DNA of 59,301 nucleotides from assembly GCA_028817405.1 (NCBI GenBank), contig JAPPPS010000102.1, forward strand, positions 1-59,301, read 5' to 3'. Below the pieces are notes generated by a model. The model worked only from the letters and a program-made list of their open reading frames with translations, ran no database searches and was not told the DNA's origin. Position numbers and translations under genes: made by a program. The DNA comes from Gammaproteobacteria bacterium (GTDB taxonomy: Bacteria > Pseudomonadota > Gammaproteobacteria > Arenicellales > Poriferihabitantaceae). Positions 28,976 through 41,755 of the stretch are shown one piece after another. Every line of letters starts with the position of its first letter. The first letter of the stretch is position 1.

Positions 28976-29027
28976 GTGCGCCAGACTCTAAATGCGTTGG
29001 CCGCCCACGCGAATAACGCCACGGTCT

Positions 29028-29777
29028 TTACTCCCGCAGAGTGGAGCGCGACATGCACGCCGGGCAATGGCACTGCTCATCGCGCGGTTTGTAGTGCACC
29101 AAGCCGTGAATCACGCCGCCTTCCGAATCGAAACGCGAAACGATGCGTTTAAAATAGGCGTTATCATCCAGTTCATAATGTCGCCAAGTGGCCCATGCCA
29201 CAAGATCCGCGAGTTGAACGATGCGCGACATTCTGGAATCGACGAACAACGGCACTTCGGCGAGGTTGCGGAGTTTTCCCCAGCGCGTTCCGCTCTCGCG
29301 GAATCCCTGCGCGAGATTCTGCAGTGTGTTCTCGTAGTGGGATTTATCCATGACAACCAAGCCTCGTTGATTTTCATCCGCTCTCGTTCTTCTCAGTTTT
29401 AAGTCAAAGCGGTTGCAGATTTGTTCAAAAGCGTATTCCACCGGGTCGTGAGGGGCGATGGCATGTTTATGTACGGCAACGGCGAACAAGCGGGCACTCT
29501 TGCGCTTGTCGGAGAGAATATCAAGCGCACTTTTAATGATTTCAAGACGGCGACTTCGCCGCGCCGCTTTCCATGGCCGGGTTTTTCCGCTCGCCATCTC
29601 GGAAGCATGCAATTCGGCATTTTCCGAATCCTCCAAGCCAAGGTCGCGGACAAACTCATCGACTTCTTTAATGATGTGGTATATCTGTCGCTCAAACACG
29701 GCGACACCAGCAAGAACGAAATAAGTATCGTTGGGGTTTTTGACGGTTCCGGCACCGTCAATGTAGAGTAAATGCAT
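29028..29777 (-). CDS. DUF3800 domain protein
   Basis: A 249-residue protein. The N-terminus LLYIDGAG corresponds to the YIDESG start of the DUF3800 family, with Glu-Ser replaced by Gly-Ala. The middle strand VVMDKS and the C-terminal SRIVQLADLVAWATWRH match the family, which is thought to have an RNase H-like fold and is common in mobile and defence regions. The C-terminus has a Cys pair (CHCPAC) with a nearby His that could bind zinc. Biochemical function is unknown. It is divergent to the GmrSD-like gene. It is the first gene of the island after bamA. Confidence 0.8.
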   Translation of the reverse strand: MHLLYIDGAGTVKNPNDTYFVLAGVAVFERQIYHIIKEVDEFVRDLGLEDSENAELHASEMASGKTRPWKAARRSRRLEIIKSALDILSDKRKSARLFAVAVHKHAIAPHDPVEYAFEQICNRFDLKLRRTRADENQRGLVVMDKSHYENTLQNLAQGFRESGTRWGKLRNLAEVPLFVDSRMSRIVQLADLVAWATWRHYELDDNAYFKRIVSRFDSEGGVIHGLVHYKPRDEQCHCPACMSRSTLRE

Positions 29778-30296
29778 TGTTCGCTTCCTTGCGGGGGGTT
29801 GATGGGGAGATTAAAAAAGATGTAGCCGGGTGGGGACCACGCCCCAACGAACCGTGAAAACCGACAGCCCTCCCGACCACGAATGCAATATATGGCACTT
29901 CCTCCCCCGATGTCAAAGGGTTTTTTGAAAAAATGTTAAATAATTTTCCTCCCCGAAAAAACATCGTAACGCTTTGAAAATCAAGAATTTATTCCAAAAT
30001 TCCTGCCGACAGCCAAGAAACCTCGGTGTTCATGCGCAACTTAATTGCCGACATCGCCGGCGAAAGCGCAGCGCTTGCCATCACCGTGCGCCCACAACCA
30101 CCGCCACTTCCGCAGCATGTTGAGCGGACATCCAGCATATTTTTGCTGCTGATTGTGTGGTGGTCGTGGAAAAACGCCGCTGTTTTCCCGTCCGGGGAGC
30201 GAAATCTCGCTATGGCAGTTGGAATTTCGCCGATTTTCCGCCGCATGCTTTCTGTGCTACAATACCCGGACATTCACCAGCCACCGCGATGCCACC
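29778..30296. other. Divergent gap in the island
   Basis: About 520 bases between DUF3800 and the GmrSD-like gene. The left half is strikingly A+T-rich (about 29920-29960, with TTTTTTGAAAAAATG) against its G+C-rich surroundings, and should hold the DUF3800 promoter. A 94-codon minus-strand frame at 29989-30273 lacks any family feature. Confidence 0.5.
30258..30263 (+). promoter_or_regulatory. Extended -10 upstream of the GmrSD-like gene
   Basis: TACAAT preceded by TGC at the extended -10 position, 33 bases before the start at 30297. A -35 is weak. Confidence 0.45.
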
Positions 30297-31973
30297 ATGA
30301 AAGCCGAAGTCCAGAATTTGGAGCGCGTTTTTGCCAAAGAGGGGGATAAGCAATTTATTGTTCCCGCATATCAGCGTCCGTATCGATGGGATGCGGACGA
30401 TGCCGTGCAATTGTTGCGGGATGTTCACGAAAGTTGCGATGCTGATGAGACGGAATATTTTATCGGCAGCATGATATGCATCAAGAAAGACAACAAATAT
30501 GAAGTGGTTGACGGTCAACAGCGCCTCATCACGCTCACCATTATCCTGTCTTGCTTAAGCGAATGCATCCGGAATCCCGGCATTAAAAAGGAACTCAAAG
30601 AACGCATTCTGCGTTCCGACCCGTTTTCAAAAAACACAACTCCTCGCGCGACATTGGTGGTGCATGAGCGGGAGCACGATTTTTACTTCAACCATGTTCT
30701 CCACAGAGAGCATGTTGAGGAAGGCCGTTCAGTCACCGAAAAGGTATACGAGCATAATCGCAAAGATGTTGGCGAATACCTGAAAAATATGGAGCAATCC
30801 GGATTGGAGCGCCTTGCGAAACATCTTTCTCGCAGCGTGTCCGTTGTGTTTGTGGAAGTGGATGATTTTACATCCGCATTTCGCTTGTTTAATGTCCTGA
30901 ACAATCGTGGCATGCGGTTGAACGATGCGGATTTGGTTAAAAATTTGCTGCTTGAAGCGGTGGCAAACGATGAAGAAGGATCTCGCCTGGTGGACAATTC
31001 GTGGAAAGTTATGGAAGAGCAAGTTGGCGAAGATGAACTTCACCAATTCATCCGAATGCACATTATTTCCGAAAAAAAGAATCGCGACAGAGTAATCAAG
31101 ATTGCGAGCAAGAAAGCATCTCCGTATGAATATTACAGGCATCAGTTGAAGAATGAGTTCGACGGGAAGTCGACCAAAATGGTCCAGATGCTGAGAACTT
31201 CGGCAGTCAACTATCGAGATATTCTCGATGGTAAATGGGGCGCCGACAAGACGATTCGTCTCTTGAATAACCTTAATAAGCCTTTCGAGTGGATGCCGGC
31301 GTTTTTGGCGTTTGCCAACAAATGGCCGGGGCGAGAAGGGTTCGCGGATTTCGCCTGGATGTTTGAGAAAATCTATATGCAAGGTTGGCTTACAACCGGG
31401 AAGCGCGATGACGCGTGCTACAGAGCAATCGAGGCCATCAACAAAGGCAAATCTGTTGATGCGGTGATTGATGTCCTCAGGCAACGCGCTGAAGACAAGA
31501 AGCTCGAAGAGTCATTGGACTCGAGCGAATTTTATGATGTCACCCGTCGCCAAATCATCAATTTTGTCAAGGCGGTTTTGATTCGCGTCAATGACGAACG
31601 CCATGATGAGAGCGCAAAAATTGATGTTTCCGATAAGGTTCATGTTGAACACATTCTGCCCCAAAACATGAGCGCAAACGCCTATTGGCGCGAGAGGTTT
31701 TCTGATGATGAGCATGCCAAGTGGGTCAACAAACTCGGCAATTTGACGCTACTGAGTGGGCGCAAAAACTCGGTCGCAAGAAATAGCGCTTTCCCTGAAA
31801 AGAAGAAAGCATACAAAAAGGATGGGAAGATTCCAGCGCTTTCCATCACCCAGGAAATATTGAACTACGACGAGTGGAACGCGGACAGTTTACGCGCGCG
31901 TCACGAGAAACTGAAAAAGGAAATTCTGGCGTTGTGGTTGGTGCGGGATAAAACCGACATTTTCGGCGGGTAA
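30297..31973 (+). CDS. GmrSD-like DUF262/DUF1524 protein
   Basis: A 558-residue protein with the layout of a fused type IV, modification-dependent restriction enzyme. The N-terminal DUF262 (GmrS-like, ParB/sulfiredoxin fold) shows VPAYQRPYRWD at ~19-30 and VDGQQRLITLT at ~67-77, the NTP-handling motifs. The C-terminal DUF1524 (GmrD-like HNH nuclease) shows HVEHILPQN at ~450 and LGNLTLLSGRKNSVARNSAF. GmrSD cleaves DNA with glucosylated hydroxymethylcytosine, but relatives differ in target. Codons here are richer in A and T than in the flanking core genes, consistent with transfer. A defence role is inference from the family and neighbours. It is nearly the full family length and looks intact. 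Confidence 0.9.
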   Translation: MKAEVQNLERVFAKEGDKQFIVPAYQRPYRWDADDAVQLLRDVHESCDADETEYFIGSMICIKKDNKYEVVDGQQRLITLTIILSCLSECIRNPGIKKELKERILRSDPFSKNTTPRATLVVHEREHDFYFNHVLHREHVEEGRSVTEKVYEHNRKDVGEYLKNMEQSGLERLAKHLSRSVSVVFVEVDDFTSAFRLFNVLNNRGMRLNDADLVKNLLLEAVANDEEGSRLVDNSWKVMEEQVGEDELHQFIRMHIISEKKNRDRVIKIASKKASPYEYYRHQLKNEFDGKSTKMVQMLRTSAVNYRDILDGKWGADKTIRLLNNLNKPFEWMPAFLAFANKWPGREGFADFAWMFEKIYMQGWLTTGKRDDACYRAIEAINKGKSVDAVIDVLRQRAEDKKLEESLDSSEFYDVTRRQIINFVKAVLIRVNDERHDESAKIDVSDKVHVEHILPQNMSANAYWRERFSDDEHAKWVNKLGNLTLLSGRKNSVARNSAFPEKKKAYKKDGKIPALSITQEILNYDEWNADSLRARHEKLKKEILALWLVRDKTDIFGG

Positions 31974-32337
31974 TTGCCGAGGAGGTTGAGCGCCAATTTG
32001 GCGTTTCGTGCGGGAACACGGATGCCAGGGATGGCGGGTTAGGTGAGTCCTGCATCGCTGGACGGAATCGAGAGGCGGTCGCGCTGTCGCCATGGACGCG
32101 AGCAAGCGAACGGCGAAGGCGAAACGGGATAGACCGCGGCGAGTTGCAGAAGGTGAAGGAAGTGTTGGTGAAGCATTTGTAGAGCGCGAAATACATTTGC
32201 GCACATTGGGCTTGACAAAGAAAATCCAACCGTTAAAACAACCGCCATGTTCAATACAGAGCAAGTCAAAATTCCCGAATCCGCCCCGAATGTGGGGGCG
32301 GCGCTTTCGGGATTTCACCAATACCGAGGACTAAACA
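31974..32337. other. Gap upstream of the capsid-like gene
   Basis: About 360 bases without a convincing gene. It includes TTGACA at 32212-32217 with TTAAAA 15 bases downstream, a weak promoter for the capsid-like gene, and a nested inverted repeat at about 32275-32313 (CCGCCCC/GGGGGCGG inside CCCGAA/TTCGGG). The latter could act as an attenuator just before the start at 32338. Confidence 0.45.
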
Positions 32338-33597
32338 ATGAACGCCAAAAGTTTGAATGATGCGGAAAGCGAACTTTCCGCGCCCGACATCCTTACGAAT
32401 GAAATTCTGCAAGAATTGGATTCGCATCTGTTTCTTCCGCGATTGACATCGTGGGGCGATAGATACGACTTCCCGACCCGAATCGACGGCACCATCAATG
32501 TCAGGCGGGTGTTCAGGGCGGTAACCCACGAAGGACGCACGATTAACCGACAACACATGATGAACAACCGCGTCGAGATGAAAGTCAATATCGGATGCAA
32601 ACGCGGCATCGATTTTGGCCATAAAGACCCGATTATAGGCGGCCGGGAATTGGCGTTGTTGTATGACATTGCCGGCGGCGAGGAGTTTCACAATGGAACG
32701 CATTTTCTGGTTGGCATTCCCGGAAGCGCTTTGACGGTTGATTCGATTGACAAAATCGAATTCTACATCCGCCAGCAGCGCATGGATTTCCCGACACCGG
32801 CTTTGTTCCCGTCCGATGATTTGACCGCCATCGCGAGCGATATCGAGCAACATGGCGCGCTGCCGATTGCCGGTGAAGTTGTTCGTGAACGCTATCGCGG
32901 TCATTGCCGCGGAGTTTATTTGTATGAATCGGACGACTTGCCGTATTACGAGATTGCGGACTACGGCGATTCGACTCCGTTGGTTGATTCGCCCGGTGGC
33001 TGTCGTGGTTCGAAACTGCCAACCGATGGCTGGCAGGCATCCACCAAGGTGTTGAACAAAGGGCAACTCATCACTATCGCCGGTGTGTATGATGTCAAAC
33101 CGCGCGACGACTACCGGCCGCTCACTGAACAGAAGACTTTCGTAGTCACCGACGATGTAACCACGAGCCCAACCGGCACGGCGGAAATTCCGATTTCCCC
33201 GGCAATCAACGACGGTAAACTGACCGACAATGCCGGCGATGGCTCGACCGAATCCGGCAAGTCGACACATCAGACTTGCTCCAACGAAGCCGACGACAAT
33301 GCCATCATTACGGTGGTTGGCGCAGGAGATGTCGGCGAGAACAAAGGCAAGCGTTTCCGTCAGGGATTCATCTTTGACAGTAGAGCGATGCAGTATGTCA
33401 ATGTCCAGATGGAAAAAAGCACGCTACCTGGTGTCTATCAAGAGCATGCAACTGACCAGCATGTTGGTCTTGATGTGCTTTATGCGGCGTGGACAGACGG
33501 TCGAAACCTTAAAGAGTCGCATCGTCTGGATGTCAGCGGCGCGGTCAAGGTCGTCCACCCCGAATTGGTTGTTCGCATCATTACAGGCATGGCGTAG
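32338..33597 (+). CDS. P22-type major capsid protein, orphan
   Basis: A 419-residue protein resembling the phage P22 coat-protein family. The N-terminus APDILTNEILQELDSHLFLP, then GTINVRRVFRAV and VNIGCKRGIDFG, follow the family opening. Later LNKGQLITIAGVYDVKP, FVVTDDVT and IPISPAI match the insertion domain, and the end RQGFIFDSRAMQYVNVQM to LDVLYAAW and LVVRIIT matches the family C-terminus. Its length is close to that of family members. No portal, terminase or scaffold gene lies nearby, so this is a lone capsid gene. It could be a prophage relic, a satellite part, or a domesticated shell protein. The assignment is by recalled pattern. Confidence 0.8.
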   Translation: MNAKSLNDAESELSAPDILTNEILQELDSHLFLPRLTSWGDRYDFPTRIDGTINVRRVFRAVTHEGRTINRQHMMNNRVEMKVNIGCKRGIDFGHKDPIIGGRELALLYDIAGGEEFHNGTHFLVGIPGSALTVDSIDKIEFYIRQQRMDFPTPALFPSDDLTAIASDIEQHGALPIAGEVVRERYRGHCRGVYLYESDDLPYYEIADYGDSTPLVDSPGGCRGSKLPTDGWQASTKVLNKGQLITIAGVYDVKPRDDYRPLTEQKTFVVTDDVTTSPTGTAEIPISPAINDGKLTDNAGDGSTESGKSTHQTCSNEADDNAIITVVGAGDVGENKGKRFRQGFIFDSRAMQYVNVQMEKSTLPGVYQEHATDQHVGLDVLYAAWTDGRNLKESHRLDVSGAVKVVHPELVVRIITGMA

Positions 33598-33823
33598 TCA
33601 TGATTTCTCCCAGGTCTCGCGCGAACCGCAACGCTTCTGTGGCGCGTTTAGCCGCCAAGCGGCGGCACCCGTCCGCAAACTTAGGCAAGGAGTCCAATGC
33701 GCCCATGTTCGCCACGCCTACAGTCCGTTAAGCGGGCGCCCGGCAGATTTTTGTTTACTTTTCCCGCCTTTTTGCGGTAGGGTGGCTCATCGTCAAACTA
33801 CTATCTGGAGACGGAAAATCGCC
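33598..33823. other. Gap between capsid-like and MORN genes
   Basis: It contains the left copy of a 31-base inverted repeat (33710-33740) followed by a T-rich stretch. The promoter of the MORN gene is probably at about 33745-33790. GGAG sits 14 bases before the MORN start. Confidence 0.4.
33710..33740 (+). repeat. Left copy of a 31-base inverted repeat
   Basis: This matches the reverse complement of 39729-39759 at 29 of 31 positions; the core is CAGTCCGTTAAGCGGGCGCC. A shorter degenerate copy is at about 295-318. The two copies enclose 6 kb with the MORN, Sel1, coiled-coil, IS30 and HNH genes. Confidence 0.85.
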
Positions 33824-34780
33824 ATGAAAACCCGAACCGCCGTCATCGCCTTCGCCGCCGCGCTTTTTGCCGCCTCCGCTTTTGCCGACCATAACCGCAC
33901 CGATGAGCAGGGGCGGAAACAGGGGCATTGGACGGAATTTCCCGAGCAAGAAGATTTGCTGTCGATGGAGGGCAATTATGTCGACGGCAGGGAGGACGGT
34001 AATTGGATTTGGCAGTGGGCGAGCGGCAAAGTGTCAGAAGGCCCCATGATGAACGGCAAACGGCACGGTCATTGGGTTTTGCGGTTTGCCGGCGGCCAAG
34101 TGCAGAAAGGCCCCTATGTCAACGGTAAACAGCACGGTGAGTGGGTTACACGATTTGCTGATGGCGATGTGCATGAAGGCCCCATGGTGGCTGGCAAACG
34201 ACACGGCAAGTGGGTTGGACGGTCTCCCGCTGGTGATGTGCGTGAAATCCCATATGTGAACGGCAAGATGCACGGCAAAGAAATTTGGCGGTTTCCCAAT
34301 GGCTTTGTGTGGGAAATTCCATATAAGCATGGCAAGGAGCATGGTAAGTCAATTATGCGGGATGCCGCTGGCGATGTGCGTGAAACTTCATACAAGGAGG
34401 GCGAGATACACGGCAAGGAAATCGTGCGGTTTGACGATGGCGATGTGCATGAAACCTCATACAAAGATGGTGTGCGTCAGGAGGAAATTCGGTGGTATGC
34501 AAGTGGTGGCGCGGTAAAAACCATATATAATCGAGAAGCCATGCCGGATACAGACGATGAGAAATATTCTGGCGAGGACGGATTTGATAAGTGGTTTGCT
34601 GACCAAAAGGCGTGGGAGAAGCGGAATGTCCTGGTTATCGCTGTCGGGCCCGAGCCGGTTATCGCCGACTTTGACGATGTGGATGAGTGGCGGAAAGTGC
34701 ACGAAGAGTGGACTGAGCGCAAAGAGACCTGGGAAAAGCAGCAAAACACGGCATCGGCAAGCGGCGATGCCGGTAACTGA
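33824..34780 (+). CDS. Exported MORN-repeat protein
   Basis: A 318-residue protein with a signal peptide (RTAVIAFAAALFAASAFA). From residue ~54 on, about seven and a half repeats of 23 residues follow the MORN-like pattern (NGKRHGHWVLRFAGGQVQKG, AGKRHGKWVGRSPAGDVREI and so on), with HG-W and G-V at fixed places. In other proteins such repeats build an elongated beta sheet. The C-terminal ~90 residues are acidic and helical, ending in a Lys/Glu stretch. It begins a run of plus-strand genes up to 37971. A role at the envelope or in binding a partner is possible; no enzyme motif is seen. Confidence 0.8.
   Translation: MKTRTAVIAFAAALFAASAFADHNRTDEQGRKQGHWTEFPEQEDLLSMEGNYVDGREDGNWIWQWASGKVSEGPMMNGKRHGHWVLRFAGGQVQKGPYVNGKQHGEWVTRFADGDVHEGPMVAGKRHGKWVGRSPAGDVREIPYVNGKMHGKEIWRFPNGFVWEIPYKHGKEHGKSIMRDAAGDVRETSYKEGEIHGKEIVRFDDGDVHETSYKDGVRQEEIRWYASGGAVKTIYNREAMPDTDDEKYSGEDGFDKWFADQKAWEKRNVLVIAVGPEPVIADFDDVDEWRKVHEEWTERKETWEKQQNTASASGDAGN
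33983..34510 (+). repeat. 69-bp tandem repeats in the MORN gene
   Basis: About seven and a half diverged copies of a 69-base unit, coding for 23-residue MORN-like repeats. Copies differ at many silent and replaced positions, so the array is old rather than freshly expanded. Confidence 0.8.
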
Positions 34781-34821
34781 CAACCGCTTGCCGTTTTGGC
34801 AGGCATTCGCGGAGAAACGAC

Positions 34822-35313
34822 ATGATCAGCAAACAAACTATTTCAGACCTGATAAGTTTTGCCGAACAGGGCAATTCGGCGGCGCAATTTGCTTTTGCTA
34901 TGATGTGCTATAAGGGCAAAGATGCGCTAAAGAATGATGAACTGGCAGTGCACTGGTGGAGAAAGGCCGCTGAACAAGGAGAGCCGCTGTCGCAGTATTG
35001 TCTCGGCATGATGTATTGCGAGGGTGAAGGTGTGCCAAAAGATTACACGAAAGCCGCGTACTGGTGCCGCAAATCCGCCGAACAGGGCTTTGTGGATGCG
35101 CAGTTCATTCTCGGCGCGATGTATAGACTTGGCGACGGTGTAGCGAAAGATGAAGTAGAGGCATATAAATGGTTTAATCTCGCCGGCGCACAAGGACATA
35201 AAGAGGCGGCAAGGCATTTGGAATTGCTGGAAGCGCAGATGTCATCTGAGGATGTCGCCGAGGCGCAAAAACAAGCCAGCGAATGGGATGAGCGTGAAAA
35301 CGCCGCCGAATAA
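34822..35313 (+). CDS. Sel1-repeat protein
   Basis: A 163-residue protein of three Sel1-like repeats (AAQFAFAMMCYKG, SQYCLGMMYCEGEGVPKDYT, AQFILGAMYRLGDGVAKDEV), each 36 residues with the A-x-x-LG-Y-GxGV-KD pattern. Sel1 repeats mediate protein binding. No signal peptide is evident. It follows the MORN gene after 41 bases, likely in one transcript. The MORN and Sel1 pair could act together, but neither shows a catalytic motif. Confidence 0.85.
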   Translation: MISKQTISDLISFAEQGNSAAQFAFAMMCYKGKDALKNDELAVHWWRKAAEQGEPLSQYCLGMMYCEGEGVPKDYTKAAYWCRKSAEQGFVDAQFILGAMYRLGDGVAKDEVEAYKWFNLAGAQGHKEAARHLELLEAQMSSEDVAEAQKQASEWDERENAAE

Positions 35314-35380
35314 ACTCAACTTCGCCTGCCTCTATCCCGTCCGCCCAATTCAACCAAGGTTACACAAACGAGGTAGCAAG

Positions 35381-35923
35381 ATGAATCAACTTTCTGCCAT
35401 AGATGCACCAACAACATTTCTTACCGCTTGGGGAGATGTGTTGTTGTCGACCGTCGCCATCATATTGTCGAGCATCGCTATCGGTTGGAATATTTATCGT
35501 GATTTGACAGACAAGGGGAGACTCCAAGTGTCGTGCTACTTAAGCAAGATGGTTGTCCCGGGTGTAGGCATCGACCCAAAAGAATACTTGGTGTGGAGCA
35601 TCGTAAATAATGGTCGCCAACCAATTTTACTGACAACAATCGGAGGGCTCTGCAGAAACAAAGAAGCGTTTTTGTTGCCAAATCCCACTTGCCAACTACC
35701 CATAATGCTTCGACCGGGCGAGTTTGTGTTGGAATATCAAGAAGCCAGCGAGTTTGGCAAGTTGATTGACAGTGATTTGGTGGCATTGACAGCTATCGAT
35801 TCCCTAAATCGCACCTACAAATCCCCCCGAAAACAAATAAGGAAAATAAAGAAAGATTTCGCGGCCGAAAAGACAGAAAAATATAGCCACGAATCCAACG
35901 AAAACAAGGACAATATCGATTGA
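35381..35923 (+). CDS. Small membrane-anchored protein of unknown function
   Basis: A 180-residue protein. The start at 35381 has GAGGT about seven bases upstream; the frame runs on upstream into the end of the Sel1 gene but without support. One membrane helix (about residues 18-38, VLLSTVAIILSSIAIGWNIY) is followed by a soluble domain with several beta strands and a Lys/Asn-rich tail. I do not recognise the family. It could be a sensor or accessory protein of this gene run. Confidence 0.6.
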   Translation: MNQLSAIDAPTTFLTAWGDVLLSTVAIILSSIAIGWNIYRDLTDKGRLQVSCYLSKMVVPGVGIDPKEYLVWSIVNNGRQPILLTTIGGLCRNKEAFLLPNPTCQLPIMLRPGEFVLEYQEASEFGKLIDSDLVALTAIDSLNRTYKSPRKQIRKIKKDFAAEKTEKYSHESNENKDNID

Positions 35924-35979
35924 ACGCGACTATTATGTTGCGCATTTTTCACGACCACATTGTCGCCGCCAATATCCGC

Positions 35980-35985
35980 TATAAT
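35980..35985 (+). promoter_or_regulatory. -10 element upstream of the exported protein gene
   Basis: A perfect TATAAT 44 bases before the start at 36030. No matching -35 at the usual spacing. It suggests that the gene at 36030 has its own promoter. Confidence 0.5.
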
Positions 35986-36029
35986 CGGTTCCGATTTTCC
36001 ACCCACCCATCACAGCGAGAGAACATCCC

Positions 36030-36674
36030 ATGAAAATCCGTCCAATTTTATTCGCAGTGCTCGCCATTGCTGTTGTTTCCGCTTTGGTGTTAAATGACAG
36101 CGATAACGCTTCGTTGGCATCCAATCGCGCCGCTGATTTGCTCGGCGAAATACGGTCGGGGAATGTTGCGCTCACTTCCACTCACGGTGTCGACGCATCA
36201 ACCGGCGCATCTGTGCTTGGGCATTTGGTTAACAACACCAGCAAGAATATTCGCGTTGCGGTTAATCTTGACCGGCCGCTGTTTATGCGAAATTCCAATC
36301 GCCGGTCGCAGAATATGCTTGCCACGCAAGTATTTAATCGTGATGGAACATACCTGCGAGATGGCAAGCGATCTTTTATCACGCTTAAAGCAAACAAACG
36401 AATACCGGTGACCTTTATTGCCTACTGCGTGGATTTTGAGAAGGATAATCCGACCAACATCGATTCGTTTTCCATCAGCGATGTGCCTGCCGAACTGGTC
36501 GGAATTAGCGGCAAGATTCAGCGATACGAGCGCGAGAATCCGGACGCCGATTCCGGTGCCGCATTGCAACTCGCCCTTTGGCTGGCGCAGGGCGAAAGCA
36601 TCCGAGAAATTCGTGAGAAATTTGTATTCACTCCGCAGGACGAACAAACGGCGCGCAGACTAATTAATCAATGA
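36030..36674 (+). CDS. Exported protein of unknown function
   Basis: A 214-residue protein with an N-terminal hydrophobic segment (PILFAVLAIAVVSALVL) that may be a signal peptide or anchor. The middle, GHLVNNTSKNIRVAVNLDRPLF through KRIPVTFIAYCVDFEKDNP, looks like an immunoglobulin-type beta domain. The C-terminal part is helical (ALQLALWLAQGESIREIREKF). No family is recognised. It has its own TATAAT upstream and a strong terminator directly after its stop, so it is probably a single-gene transcript. Confidence 0.65.
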   Translation: MKIRPILFAVLAIAVVSALVLNDSDNASLASNRAADLLGEIRSGNVALTSTHGVDASTGASVLGHLVNNTSKNIRVAVNLDRPLFMRNSNRRSQNMLATQVFNRDGTYLRDGKRSFITLKANKRIPVTFIAYCVDFEKDNPTNIDSFSISDVPAELVGISGKIQRYERENPDADSGAALQLALWLAQGESIREIREKFVFTPQDEQTARRLINQ

Positions 36675-36705
36675 AAAAACTGCCCGGCGGGCCGGGCGGT
36701 TTTTA
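36675..36705 (+). terminator. Rho-independent terminator
   Basis: GCCCGGC (36682-36688) and GCCGGGC (36691-36697) pair around GG, followed by GGTTTTTA. An A-run before the stem lets it work on both strands. It ends the transcript of the gene at 36030. Confidence 0.85.
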
Positions 36706-36966
36706 TTCTCCCGGCCCGGTTATTTTTTCCGGGCGCACGACAATGGCCTACAACCCGCCCCGGCAGCGCATCTTCGCCTTAATTATCGCACCACCTATCG
36801 CATCACGATGCGTTTCGGTTTCGGTTATTCGCCGACACGCGGGAAGTGGGCGATATGTTCCGAAAGTGCGCCCGGACAGAAATTGTGGTATGGTGACATC
36901 GGTGTGGCAAGATAGCGCCCCGCCAGAGATCGCCAGAGATTTAACGAAAATCGCCGAGGCATCACC

Positions 36967-37971
36967 ATGAACGAGCAAGAAATTTCCGCACTCGTTGAAC
37001 AACGAGTGCGTGACGAACTGGACAATAGAGCCGGTGAAATAGTGGAGTTAATAAAGCGCACCGCCGAAGCCAAAGATATAGCGGACAAAGCGCTTACGCA
37101 TGCTAATGATGCCAAAAGCAAGGCTGAAGGTGTCGAATTTTTTGCTGACGAAACCCAAGGCAAAATCGATGCGGTCAACGCGCGCTCAGATGAGGCGCAA
37201 AGTAAAGTCGATGCGGCCAGCGCTAACGCTGATGAAGCCCAAAGAAAAGCCGGTGCCGCCGGTGCGCTCGCCGATGAATCCCGAAGCAAAGCCGAAAACG
37301 CCAGTTCAGGTGCCAATGATGCTCAAAATAAAGCCGATGCCGCCAGCGCGGTTGCCAACGATGCTCAAAGCAAAGTCGACACCGCCAATGCGCGTGTCGA
37401 TGAGGTTATTCGTAAGACTGACGAGTTAAACGAGCGCACCAATGAGGTTCTTGGAAATGCTGAAAGCGCCCTCGATATGACTGAAAAAGCCCTCAGCAAT
37501 GCTGCTGCAGTCGGTGTAAGCGGGGCTATTCATGAGCGATATGAGGAAGAGAAAAAGAAGGGCAAAATAAATTTGTGTTGGCTGGCTGCGGCTGCAGGCA
37601 CCGCTGGAGTTGCCGTGTGGATAGGTCATCTAACGATAGCCGGCCAAGAGCAAACTACCATAGGCGCGGTTGTGGCGAGAATCGCCATGATGTCAGTGGC
37701 GATTTCAGCGGCATGGTTCTGCGCGTCTCAATATGTTCGGTATAGAAATACTCTGGATGACTACGGCTACAAATCAGTCTTGGCAATGTCTATCATTGCT
37801 TTTCTCGACCAGTTCAAGGAAAACCCCAAGGAAAGAGAAAACTACTTGAGCATGGTCCTCGGTGAAATACACCGAGACCCTTTGCGCAAAAATCATGATG
37901 TCGATTCTCCAACTACTCGGCTTTTCCGGTGGTTTGGAAAAAGCAAAAATGAAACCGATGCCTCATCGTAA
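36967..37971 (+). CDS. Coiled-coil protein with two C-terminal TM helices
   Basis: A 334-residue protein. Residues ~30-180 are built of 14-residue units, two heptads each (ADEAQRKAGAAGAL, ADESRSKAENASSG, ANDAQNKADAASAV, ANDAQSKVDTANAR), which should form a long coiled coil. Two hydrophobic helices follow (LCWLAAAAGTAGVAVWIGHL and ARIAMMSVAISAAWFCASQY). A cytoplasmic-type tail of about 80 residues ends in a basic patch. The architecture suggests a membrane-tethered oligomer. No catalytic domain is seen. It ends four bases before the IS30 remnant, so insertion may have removed a downstream partner. Confidence 0.7.
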   Translation: MNEQEISALVEQRVRDELDNRAGEIVELIKRTAEAKDIADKALTHANDAKSKAEGVEFFADETQGKIDAVNARSDEAQSKVDAASANADEAQRKAGAAGALADESRSKAENASSGANDAQNKADAASAVANDAQSKVDTANARVDEVIRKTDELNERTNEVLGNAESALDMTEKALSNAAAVGVSGAIHERYEEEKKKGKINLCWLAAAAGTAGVAVWIGHLTIAGQEQTTIGAVVARIAMMSVAISAAWFCASQYVRYRNTLDDYGYKSVLAMSIIAFLDQFKENPKERENYLSMVLGEIHRDPLRKNHDVDSPTTRLFRWFGKSKNETDASS

Positions 37972-37975
37972 AAAA

Positions 37976-38391
37976 CGCGGATTCAACAAGCAACTGCAAC
38001 GCCTCAATCTGGGGGAGGGCGAGTTGCGGTAGCATCGTCTTTCACCCTACCACTGAGGAAAGACCGATGTCGTACTACACGCAACTCACCCTGGTGCAAC
38101 GATACATGATTTACCGCTTGCTGAAGTTCGGTTGCAGCCAGACCGTCATCGCCGCGGTTGTCGGCGTGTGCAAGTCCACGATTAGCCGCGAGGTGCGTCG
38201 CAACACCGGCGGCAACGGTTATCGCTGGCGGTAGGCGCATGGGTTTGCGCTGGCGCGCCGACAGGGCGGTGTCGATTGGGCAGATGACAACCCTCTCCGA
38301 AAAACGCTCCTACATCGGCGATTGCCGCGGCGAAGACCAAAATAGAGCGGTTGCGCGATGCCCGCACGCCGCAAAACCAAGCGTTTCGTTT
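37976..38391 (+). mobile_element. Decayed IS30-family element
   Basis: The left end (37976-38045) is identical to the inverted sequence at positions 1-70. It is followed by a transposase fragment. The right boundary is not clear; it is placed where similarity to an IS30 transposase seems to stop, just before the HNH gene end at 38412. No target duplication could be identified. Confidence 0.75.
38067..38391 (+). pseudogene. IS30-family transposase, broken
   Basis: The N-terminal helix-turn-helix is clear: SYYTQLTLVQRYMIYRLLKF, then SQTVIAAVVGVCKSTISREV and RRNTGGNGYRW. A TAG follows at 38232 where IS30 transposases continue as KQA, and AHGFALARRQ resumes after it in frame. Soon afterwards similarity is lost, and a later phrase, SYIGDCRGE (in another frame), recalls the SRIGDWEGD segment that begins the catalytic domain. 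So most of the gene is deleted and the rest is broken by a stop and a shift. It cannot be active. Confidence 0.8.
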
Positions 38392-38411
38392 GGGAGTTGG
38401 ATTCGGTCTTT

Positions 38412-39599
38412 TTAGTCGACATTTGACTCGGTCACGATTTGCCCGGTCCTGATGTGTTCTCTCATTACATCTTCGAAATGCTCCGCGACCCTGTTCGCGA
38501 TGAATTCGAAGTCATTTTTGTCCCGCTCTTCGATAGTTTCCGAGACGAGATTTTTTACAGGGACTCGGTCCTCGTTGAGCAGGTTTTCGAAGAATTCTCG
38601 CGCTTCTTCCAGGCCGTCTCGAATGTTTCTTTGGGCCGCAATTTTCATGTAGTAGAGATTTGCGATGCCCTCCTTTGTTTCAGGACGGTCGGGCCTTTCG
38701 CTTCTTTTGGCTGCCCGGTCGCAAATCGCCTCGGCTTTTTCCCACTCCCCGATGATGAGATTTCGCTCAGCATATGCTTGCGCTTTATTGTACCACATGG
38801 CCACGGAGCGCTCTTTGGCTTCTTGGAGTTGCACGTCTTTGACGGAAGCGATGCCGCTATTCACTCGAGCGGTATGTGGCCCGATAAGGTTCTGGAGTTT
38901 CTGATCTTCGAGTATGTAGGCCCAGAGGAGAATTGAAGCCAGGGAGTCGACACCATGTTTCTCCTTTTGGAAGGTTGCCCCTTGGTCCAAATCTATCTGT
39001 TTGCAGATGGTCTCGACCTCATTGGCCAGTTTTGACCACTGCTCTGTCCTGCAGAACTCTCCGGCATTGAATAGAAGACGGTAGTAGAATTCGAGTTCTA
39101 CGAACCCGTGTCCTCTGCCTTCGATGTTGAAAGTAAGGCCGATTTTCTCACCCTTCTCGTTGCGCATTGTTACCAGCATCGCTTGCATGCACATGAGATG
39201 CCCTTCGGGTTTGCCACCGGGGATGTGTCCATATGCGGGCGGGGATTTCCAGTTCATGTATTTGACTCTTTCCCATCCGCTTGGGGTCTTGTACATCATC
39301 CAGCGGTTTTGCCGTTCGTCCACATAGGACCCATGGCAGTTGCATTCGAACCCGATAACTCCCAGCACCTGCCCCATCCGGGCGTTGTTGCACCCCGCGT
39401 GCATGGGCTGCAGATTCCAGTCTTTGTGTGTCACGAGGTCGGGCGCTCGCCTATTGGCGAATCTTCTCGGTACCAAGTGGTCCTCGGTAGCCTTTTCGGT
39501 GCCGTCTGCGTTCTCGGAAATCGGTCGGAGGCATCCTCCGGAGTGGATACCGCACCGGTTGTTGTCCCGCTTCATGATTCGTTGCAATCTCGGTTTCAT
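38412..39599 (-). CDS. HNH-nuclease-like protein with helical C-terminus
   Basis: A 395-residue protein with a very strong ribosome-binding site, AAGGAGG, just before the start. Residues 12-71 look like an HNH endonuclease: RDNNRC with Cys16 and Cys23, EDHLVPRR with the His41 expected to be catalytic, then NLQPMHAGCNNAR with His67 and Cys70 as further zinc ligands. Residues ~75-170 hold strands and several His/Cys; residues ~180-395 are mostly helical, with TPR-like stretches. I know no named family with this architecture. A DNA-cleaving defence or mobile-element role is plausible. Confidence 0.7.
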   Translation of the reverse strand: MKPRLQRIMKRDNNRCGIHSGGCLRPISENADGTEKATEDHLVPRRFANRRAPDLVTHKDWNLQPMHAGCNNARMGQVLGVIGFECNCHGSYVDERQNRWMMYKTPSGWERVKYMNWKSPPAYGHIPGGKPEGHLMCMQAMLVTMRNEKGEKIGLTFNIEGRGHGFVELEFYYRLLFNAGEFCRTEQWSKLANEVETICKQIDLDQGATFQKEKHGVDSLASILLWAYILEDQKLQNLIGPHTARVNSGIASVKDVQLQEAKERSVAMWYNKAQAYAERNLIIGEWEKAEAICDRAAKRSERPDRPETKEGIANLYYMKIAAQRNIRDGLEEAREFFENLLNEDRVPVKNLVSETIEERDKNDFEFIANRVAEHFEDVMREHIRTGQIVTESNVD

Positions 39600-40266
39600 G
39601 TCTCCTCCTTCGGTTGGAAAGTAATGAATTTAGCATGCGCGAGAGCGAAGCGCGCCGGCATCAGCCGCCATTTCGGACGATGTAGGGGAATAGGGAATAT
39701 TTTTCGCCTACACGGTATCTCTCACCTCGGCGCCCGCTTAACGGACTGCGGGCGTGGCGGGGGTGGGGGGCTACGGGCGCGGCGAGAAATCGAGCGAAAG
39801 CCTGCCCCCGCCCCGAGCGGGGGATTCTGGACTCCGGCTGTTGCCGGAGTGGCAAGAGGGGCCGCGCCGTCGATTCAAACGCGGCATTGTCGCGCCGATA
39901 TCGGTACTTAAGCCGGTATCGGTACTTAAGACTCTGGACTCCGGGTCGGGGCCCTTCGTTGCGATTGAGAGTTCCCGCGGTTCAACTCATCCCCGCCGCC
40001 CTGCCGATTGCCGTCCTTGCTCGGGGCGGCGGGGGTGTCGAGTCAAATGAAAGGGTTGCGCGGCGGCTGGTTTGCCATCTGTGGTGTCTGGACTCCGGCG
40101 TCCAAGCCGGAAAAATCCGCCGGGAGCGGATTTTCGCGCGAGATAAAGGGTTTGGAGCGGGGGCGTTCCAAACGATTGCGCCGCGCCACCCTTCGCGCCG
40201 TGTAATTGGATGCGGCGGCATCCGGCCCTCATTTTCCGCGCGTGAACTTCGGCCGATTTTGGGCAG
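39600..40266. other. Repeat-filled gap between HNH and protease genes
   Basis: About 670 bases with no credible gene. In order: the HNH promoter side, the right copy of the 31-base inverted repeat (39729-39759), a GCCCCGAGCGGGG hairpin at about 39810-39823, and several arms of the dispersed repeat (TCTGGACTCCGG at about 39826, 39930 and 40085). GGTACTTAAG units lie near 39901-39930. It seems to be a repeat landing site. Confidence 0.7.
39729..39759 (-). repeat. Right copy of the 31-base inverted repeat
   Basis: Reverse complement of 33710-33740 with two mismatches, both in the middle of the left third. It closes the 6-kb segment that includes the IS30 remnant. Confidence 0.85.
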
Positions 40267-41202
40267 TCATTCAGCCGTTCTCATCGGAGGGGATGTCTGC
40301 TCAATATGATTTTTCACCCACTTTTTCCCCTGATGGTTGCAGATGACTTTAATGGTGGCGCTATGTTCAAAGATGACGGTGGCGAAATGGTATGCGGTTA
40401 AGATTGCATCCTGAATCTCCTGATTTTCTTCCATTTCTTCGACAACCAGTCCCCATTCTCTTACGCTGTCGATGTCTATCCTCTGGCCGTGCACAAATAT
40501 GCCTTCGCCCATGGCATTAAATTTTTCCGCGACTTCCTCCGCATTGACTCTTCCGTCCGCCAACATCCTCTTGCTCAGCCAAGTTTCCACCAAGTGTTCG
40601 CTGTAGGACAAAGCCTCGCTTGCTTCCACCAACAACGAAGGCCCCATGCTCTGTAAAATCGGCGCCCACAAATGCGCCAATTTCGTATCCCTTTCGATAT
40701 CTGATTCAGCCCGGCCAAATCCGTCAATAATCGCTCTTGCGGACACCGTCCTGTTCTGGAAAGGCATTTGCGGGTCAATCGGCCCCAGTTGACTCTGCTT
40801 GCCCATAACGATTTTATTGGATGCCAGCGCAATCATCGTCCCTCCGGACATGGCGTAGACCGGAACAACGGCGGTTATATCTTGAAATTTCTTGTGCAGG
40901 TAACCGACAATGGTTTCCACCGCTGTTACCACGCCCCCGGGGGTGTGGAGAAGTAACACCAGTCCTTTGCTCGTGTCCATTTGGTGGACAACGGTCATAA
41001 AACCGTTGATGTCGTCAGCCATTATTTGACATGCTGTATGGGGTTTCTGCAAAAAAGCGGATGAATAACAAATCACATTGGCTCCGCCATACAAGTCGCT
41101 GATACGGCCAAGCGAACTCTGCAGTTGCCGGTCCAGCCACTGCATCGCCTCTTGCGGATTTTGCCGGCCAAGGCTGTCTATGATGTCCGTCCAAGCAGGC
41201 AT
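40267..41202 (-). CDS. ClpP-fold serine protease (SDH/SppA-like)
   Basis: A 311-residue protein of the ClpP/crotonase fold, closest by memory to the serine dehydrogenase proteinase group. LLLHTPGGVVTAVETIVGYL at ~82-101 forms the oxyanion turn, YAMSGGTMIALAS at ~116 carries the likely nucleophile serine, and LGPIDPQMP follows as in SppA-type proteases. No signal peptide or membrane helix is seen, so it is probably cytoplasmic. GGGGGG lies eight bases before the start. It follows a 59-codon gene by nine bases, an obvious pair. Target unknown. Confidence 0.82.
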   Translation of the reverse strand: MPAWTDIIDSLGRQNPQEAMQWLDRQLQSSLGRISDLYGGANVICYSSAFLQKPHTACQIMADDINGFMTVVHQMDTSKGLVLLLHTPGGVVTAVETIVGYLHKKFQDITAVVPVYAMSGGTMIALASNKIVMGKQSQLGPIDPQMPFQNRTVSARAIIDGFGRAESDIERDTKLAHLWAPILQSMGPSLLVEASEALSYSEHLVETWLSKRMLADGRVNAEEVAEKFNAMGEGIFVHGQRIDIDSVREWGLVVEEMEENQEIQDAILTAYHFATVIFEHSATIKVICNHQGKKWVKNHIEQTSPPMRTAE

Positions 41203-41211
41203 AGCGCCCCC

Positions 41212-41391
41212 CTAAAATGCGTTTTTAGTCAGTGGCTGGTCGAGAGAAGGAATTCGAATTTCAGTATCCGCTTCTGTGACCGCGAGAACTTCCAGAGTAT
41301 CCGCTATTTTCAGATACTCTTCGTAGTCCTTTTTCGCTTTCTCCAGCAACGACAAATAGTCGGCGGAGAATTTCTTTTCTTGGGTTTTCAT
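41212..41391 (-). CDS. Small protein paired with the ClpP-fold protease
   Basis: A 59-residue protein directly upstream of, and surely co-transcribed with, the ClpP-fold protease. Residues 5-40 form an amphipathic helix (FSADYLSLLEKAKKDYEEYL). The tail IRIPSLDQPLTKNAF is extended. The longer frame to 41439 adds residues without support. No family is recognised. It may be a regulator, adaptor or substrate of the protease. Confidence 0.6.
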   Translation of the reverse strand: MKTQEKKFSADYLSLLEKAKKDYEEYLKIADTLEVLAVTEADTEIRIPSLDQPLTKNAF

Positions 41392-41755
41392 AGGTTTGCC
41401 CCCGTGGGTTGGTGATTGGATATTATATCCCGGCATCAAAAATAAATGTCAACGCTAAATCTCGCCCCCAATCCCGGACTCTTGGGGGCATTTTTGTGCC
41501 TGAAAGTAGGCATCCGGCCCCCATTTTCCGCGCGTAAACTGGCATCGGGTTGTGGTATCCTCCGCCTTTCCCGGCATCCCGCCGGGCGTTTAACGCCAGA
41601 CCCGCCAAGATTCAGCATGAAAACCCCAGCCGCCGCTGACGATGCGTTCCGCTTGAAAAATGCCGCGCGCTGGGCGGCGTGCTGTTCATGGCGTTCAGTC
41701 TGATTGGCGACTGACGCCGTTGTCTATCCCGTTAATTATCCCCTCCGGATGCATC
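41392..41755. other. Gap at the right junction of the island
   Basis: It contains a hairpin at 41463-41500, then a 28-codon frame at 41617-41703 (MKTPAAADD start) with no recognisable family. An overlapping frame reads ALGGVLFMAFSLIGD before a stop, which looks like the end of a membrane segment. It may be debris of a gene lost when the island formed. skp begins at 41756. Confidence 0.4.
41463..41500 (+). terminator. Hairpin with T-run
   Basis: GCCCCCAA and TTGGGGGC pair around a ten-base loop, followed by ATTTTTG on the plus strand. No plus-strand gene reads into it today, so it may belong to a lost gene or to a repeat. Confidence 0.5.

Follow-up and report, generated by a model that had tools for sequence, protein, structure and literature searches.

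An orphan, divergent P22-type coat-protein gene in a species-specific island between bamA and skp

The locus and its island

The window, the whole 59,301-nucleotide stretch of gammaproteobacterial DNA analysed here, carries a lone gene of the P22 coat-protein family in an island that separates bamA from skp. The features on which our argument draws are given below; domain names follow those of P22 gp5 and the HK97 fold by analogy.

28976-41755, no strand: species-specific 12.8-kb island between the bamA stop (28975) and the skp ATG (41756), from comparison with relatives
30297-31973, + strand: GmrSD-type (type IV) restriction gene, upstream neighbour of the coat gene (family match; PADLOC hits)
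31974-32337, no strand: 364 bp upstream of the coat gene, with no similarity to phage scaffold and no second copy in the genome; GC hairpin near 32273-32311
32323-32337, + strand: ribosome-binding-like sequence GAGGA, spaced 7 nt from the coat ATG (by eye)
32338-33597, + strand: orphan P22-type coat-protein gene, 419 aa (open reading frame, family matches, predicted fold)
32638-32949, + strand: codons 101-204 (spine helix, A-domain region), with in-frame deletions of 11 and 4 residues; 48% of hydrophobic columns kept
32950-33372, + strand: codons 205-345, the part that is preserved best and mostly I-domain (205-330), which is about 40% identical to viral relatives
33824-34780, + strand: MORN-repeat protein with a signal-like N-terminus (by eye), downstream of the coat gene; multi-copy family in the genome
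34822-35313, + strand: Sel1-repeat protein, downstream of the coat gene

Between the stop codon of bamA and the first codon of skp lie 12,780 bp here; the closest congener, whose BamA is 79% identical, has 31 bp in this place. The insert is missing at the same site in five relatives, this congener and four others. In those five bamA is joined to skp-lpxD in an operon, which the insert splits. Scored island genes have a GC content of 0.45-0.54, against 0.61-0.70 for core genes, and no integrase was found among the island proteins scanned. A DUF3800 protein (29028-29777, - strand) directly follows bamA and marks the left border; besides it the island holds the GmrSD-type gene, the coat gene, the MORN and Sel1 repeat proteins, two family-less proteins, a coiled-coil membrane-like protein, a ClpP/SDH-like protease and, by eye, an IS30-like fragment and an HNH-like protein. 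This arrangement, with the coat gene after a restriction-type gene and before repeat proteins, agrees with an earlier note made from the sequence alone.

Several neighbours deserve mention in their own right. The MORN family has 13 matches in the genome, some in arrays (contig C86), and is rare elsewhere in the order. A 334-aa protein (36967-37971) matches an alanine-zipper coiled coil, after which two hydrophobic stretches are visible by eye. The DNA at 38067-38400, again by eye, looks like the beginning of an IS30-type transposase gene (N-terminus of the protein) and runs into an early stop.

Family membership, fold and divergence of the coat gene

The coat frame (32338-33597) is open from its ATG over 419 codons, and its composition by codon position is coding-like (GC1 0.58, GC2 0.41, GC3 0.61). 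Against PHROG 283, "major head protein," the product gives an E value of 2e-17, and against the Pfam family P22_CoatProtein (PF11651) one of 7e-5, the latter in its C-terminal half only and with a score of 22.2 bits, just below the curated cut-off of 24. With the protein as query, tblastn matched 25 phage records, best among them the coat of Vibrio phage VvAW1 (28% identity over 95%, 1e-31), and a profile built from 22 viral coats matches residues 9-417 with an E value of 4.2e-51. Other reading frames add nothing to the profile match, and compensated frameshifts are rejected as a cause of the divergence, as frameshift-aware alignment found none at penalties down to -10; the approximately 13 indels that separate the gene from the viral profile are whole-codon and all preserve the frame. 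By full-length sequence and by predicted fold, the gene belongs to the P22-type coat proteins (PHROG 283 / PF11651), and the earlier description of a full-length, open relative of the P22 coat is borne out.

The predicted structure has a P22/HK97 fold with an I-domain (pLDDT 79.9), and its best match in the PDB is the P22 procapsid (8i1v; VIA Z 29.6 over 365 residues at 3.1 Å). The structure prediction proposed earlier as a check did find the HK97 fold, although an alignment of the family was supplied to the prediction, so that the fold agrees with homology and is not independent proof of it. Folding into a subunit of HK97 type, I-domain intact, is probably still within the protein's reach. 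It resembles VvAW1-type coats in its 419-aa length, its collinearity over residues 9-417 and its predicted fold; it differs from them in its low identity, in its lack of a head operon and in a predicted spine helix of 19 residues, compared with 30 in the model of a VvAW1-type coat built from almost the same alignment. P22 gp5, the closest structural match, shares 13% identity with it and, unlike the window copy, has scaffold and portal partner genes.

Identity to any full-length relative is at most 31%, and no closer full-length relative (above about 31%) was found among the viral contigs, phages, plasmids and genomes searched. In a tree of 70 coats, where placement of the window coat is unsure, its end branch measures 2.5 changes per column, whereas the median is 0.24 and the second-longest branch 1.26; it is the most divergent coat among those found. 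Of the 75 columns with conservation of 80% or more across the family it keeps 39 and has lost 36, which puts its retention 3.8 residual SD under what the trend predicts from its identity.

This divergence is uneven. The fraction of hydrophobic columns retained is 0.84 for residues 16-100, 0.48 for 101-204, 0.88 for 205-345 (20 of 21 in the I-domain) and 0.79 for 346-419. For residues 101-204 the lowest retention in 146 other coats is 0.80, and loss of the hydrophobic core there is unique to the window copy among the coats compared, although misalignment of the region possibly exaggerates it. Constraints of shell building on the gene look relaxed: the eroded spine and A-domain core, as read from the sequence, suggests that the product would not assemble into a P22-like shell or procapsid, and together with the short spine helix it speaks against a working shell.

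The open frame itself carries information about the gene's history. In simulations of neutral genes the frame was kept in 3 of 200 runs at 20% amino-acid change and in none of 200 at 46% identity. Because simulated neutral genes so rarely keep their frame, the divergence is read as having accumulated under selection, which may have acted in a phage; neutral decay as its main cause is rejected. We conclude that the frame has long been under selection, and that most of the divergence arose in a protein that was still of use, be it to an unsampled phage lineage prior to capture or to the host afterwards. The earlier argument that a relic would usually be broken stands in so far as fewer than 2% of neutral frames survive even 20% change; it loses force as an argument against a relic, as the selection may predate a recent capture and belong to the donor phage. 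Our search for sister strains or congeners with the gene found none.

Isolation from other phage head genes

HMMs for the portal, scaffold, terminase, gp4-like and head-closure proteins of VvAW1-type phages, which were positive in 58 to 122 fetched loci, found nothing credible within the window. Their best match there, to the scaffold (E 0.018-0.028), was rejected: it falls on 36 residues of low-complexity sequence within the MORN protein. This profile search for missing phage genes upholds the earlier observation that terminase, portal and scaffold do not accompany the coat gene in the window. Across the genome, which is 93% complete, a P22-type portal is absent both by the Pfam model, which in a control detects the VvAW1 portal, and by search with the VvAW1 portal protein, so a remnant P22-type prophage elsewhere in the genome is rejected; a terminase search of the genome, run without a positive control, gave no match. 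A scaffold remnant was sought in the 364 bp upstream of the coat gene and none was detected, nor does this DNA have a second copy that would mark a mobile repeat carrying the gene. The coat gene likewise has no second copy that we could find, and no other piece of a donor phage is detectable beside it.

This isolation is unusual, because nearly all relatives with enough flanking sequence adjoin a scaffold or portal gene. In VvAW1, FGH, BA3, 1.184.A and X14 the coat gene directly follows the portal gene and the scaffold gene, or an unnamed gene in the scaffold's place. Every listed genomic relative except L127, which lies at a contig end, has a scaffold or portal match near the coat, as do 67 of 69 further loci with flanking sequence. 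As the adjacent scaffold and portal are missing, we file the gene as an orphan, divergent member of its family and not as a functional phage coat gene.

Its distribution is equally narrow. The order's 108 other genomes yielded no relative of the coat, and samples of 369 genomes from the class and 398 from the phylum yielded no close one, confining the gene to one species among the genomes searched. Because MORN relatives occur elsewhere without a coat gene, as do sporadic GmrSD relatives, the gene belongs to no conserved module, and no gene pair or conserved neighbour including it was found in the searched genomes. In a limited literature search we met no report of a solitary P22-type coat gene whose frame is maintained in a host island.

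Capture, domestication and other readings

We tentatively favour, at close to even probability, the capture of a single gene from an unsampled P22-type phage lineage, with capsids no longer made, because scaffold and portal are missing, the spine and A-domain are altered, the gene is limited to one species and no partner gene was found. One coat gene of a divergent phage would have entered the accretion island that this species carries between bamA and skp, while the remainder of the head operon did not follow. Capsids would no longer be made, the spine helix having been shortened, the A-domain region rebuilt and the scaffold and portal left behind, and the gene would now be carried as an orphan whose frame has so far escaped disruption. 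Several points weigh against this reading. The end branch of 2.5, compared with at most 1.26 in sampled phage coats, and the confinement of the erosion to one region exceed what is expected of a coat that was until recently in use by a phage; some 13 indels all keep the frame, and no further donor-phage piece is detectable nearby. If the gene is such a relic, it documents an unsampled lineage of P22-type coats with an unusually short spine helix.

The main rival, distinctly less probable, is that the product is a domesticated protein that interferes with capsids, co-assembling with the coats of infecting P22-type phages, or binding them through its I-domain, and so poisoning procapsid assembly. 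The frame that stayed open through very large divergence, with coding-type codon structure, is consistent with such a role, as are the retained I-domain beside a spine and A-domain released from constraint and the adjoining restriction-type gene. Interference with virion assembly by a prophage-encoded protein is a known defence in the case of tails (Tab, PMC10884400), an analogy limited to the possible mode of action; the target of Tab is the tape measure protein, and Tab has not been described as related to coats. A search for literature on dominant-negative coat proteins found nothing. Against this reading, the gene is a single copy in one species with neither conservation nor a close relative, and the host has no known phage with a coat of this type. 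Moreover, retention of the I-domain over the core is a general trend of the family: other distant coats show it in a control comparison, and a Janthinobacterium prophage coat has nearly the same ratio as the window coat (0.47 versus 0.49). I-domain-specific selection is therefore weakened as proof of domestication, since distant functional coats share the trend.

A retroviral parallel exists in Fv1, an endogenous capsid that acts as a restriction factor. That this P22-type coat was similarly domesticated, keeping its I-domain and rebuilding its core so as to form no capsids of its own and disturb the assembly of infecting phages instead, is in our estimate unlikely. If it were so, the gene would be a capsid-derived restriction factor in bacteria.

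The earlier note also raised a decoy, a sensed trigger, a satellite shell and a domesticated compartment, none of which is specifically favoured by a gene with no relatives in the order, no conserved neighbour, no recognisable cargo gene and an eroded core. Bacterial immunity is known to be triggered by major capsid proteins, from which encapsulins, too, are likely to have arisen. A coat mimic that serves as bait, sensed or guarded by a neighbouring defence protein, draws on the direct demonstration that a major capsid protein activates CapRel (PMC9712102) and on the nearby GmrSD and DUF3800 genes. It is very improbable: a constitutive trigger would be toxic, PADLOC run on nine island proteins gave no CapRel- or Lit-like sensor, and among its defence models the coat protein matched none and the neighbouring GmrSD-type protein did match. 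Nor is there the conserved pairing that a defence gene might show, as no relative of the coat stands near MORN or GmrSD genes, or alone, in the searched genomes.

Domestication of standalone HK97-fold genes has a precedent in encapsulins (PMC8987985), and the lone coat gene resembles them in being such a gene in a bacterial genome, with encapsulin shells among the fold matches of its model. A nanocompartment of this kind is nonetheless hardly to be expected, given a fold with an I-domain that is far nearer the P22 coat (Z 29.6 versus about 15), an eroded shell core, and a Pfam scan of neighbouring genes that turned up no cargo gene of ferritin-, peroxidase- or desulfurase-like kind. Equally improbable is that the coat belongs to an active phage or satellite, its other genes being located elsewhere or beyond recognition. 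Several family-less island proteins and a phage-type protease-like gene might suggest this, but the missing portal in the genome, the lack of an integrase among scanned island proteins and the adjacent scaffold and portal of known relatives speak against it.

That protease-like protein, of ClpP/SDH type (40267-41202, - strand), has a strong full-length match to the phage family phrog_11747 (1.4e-68), whose label gives no function. Short intergenic repeats of 30-40 bp, 88-94% alike, recur at 33710-33740, 39729-39759, 39936-39978 and 223-265, one copy lying just downstream of the coat gene.
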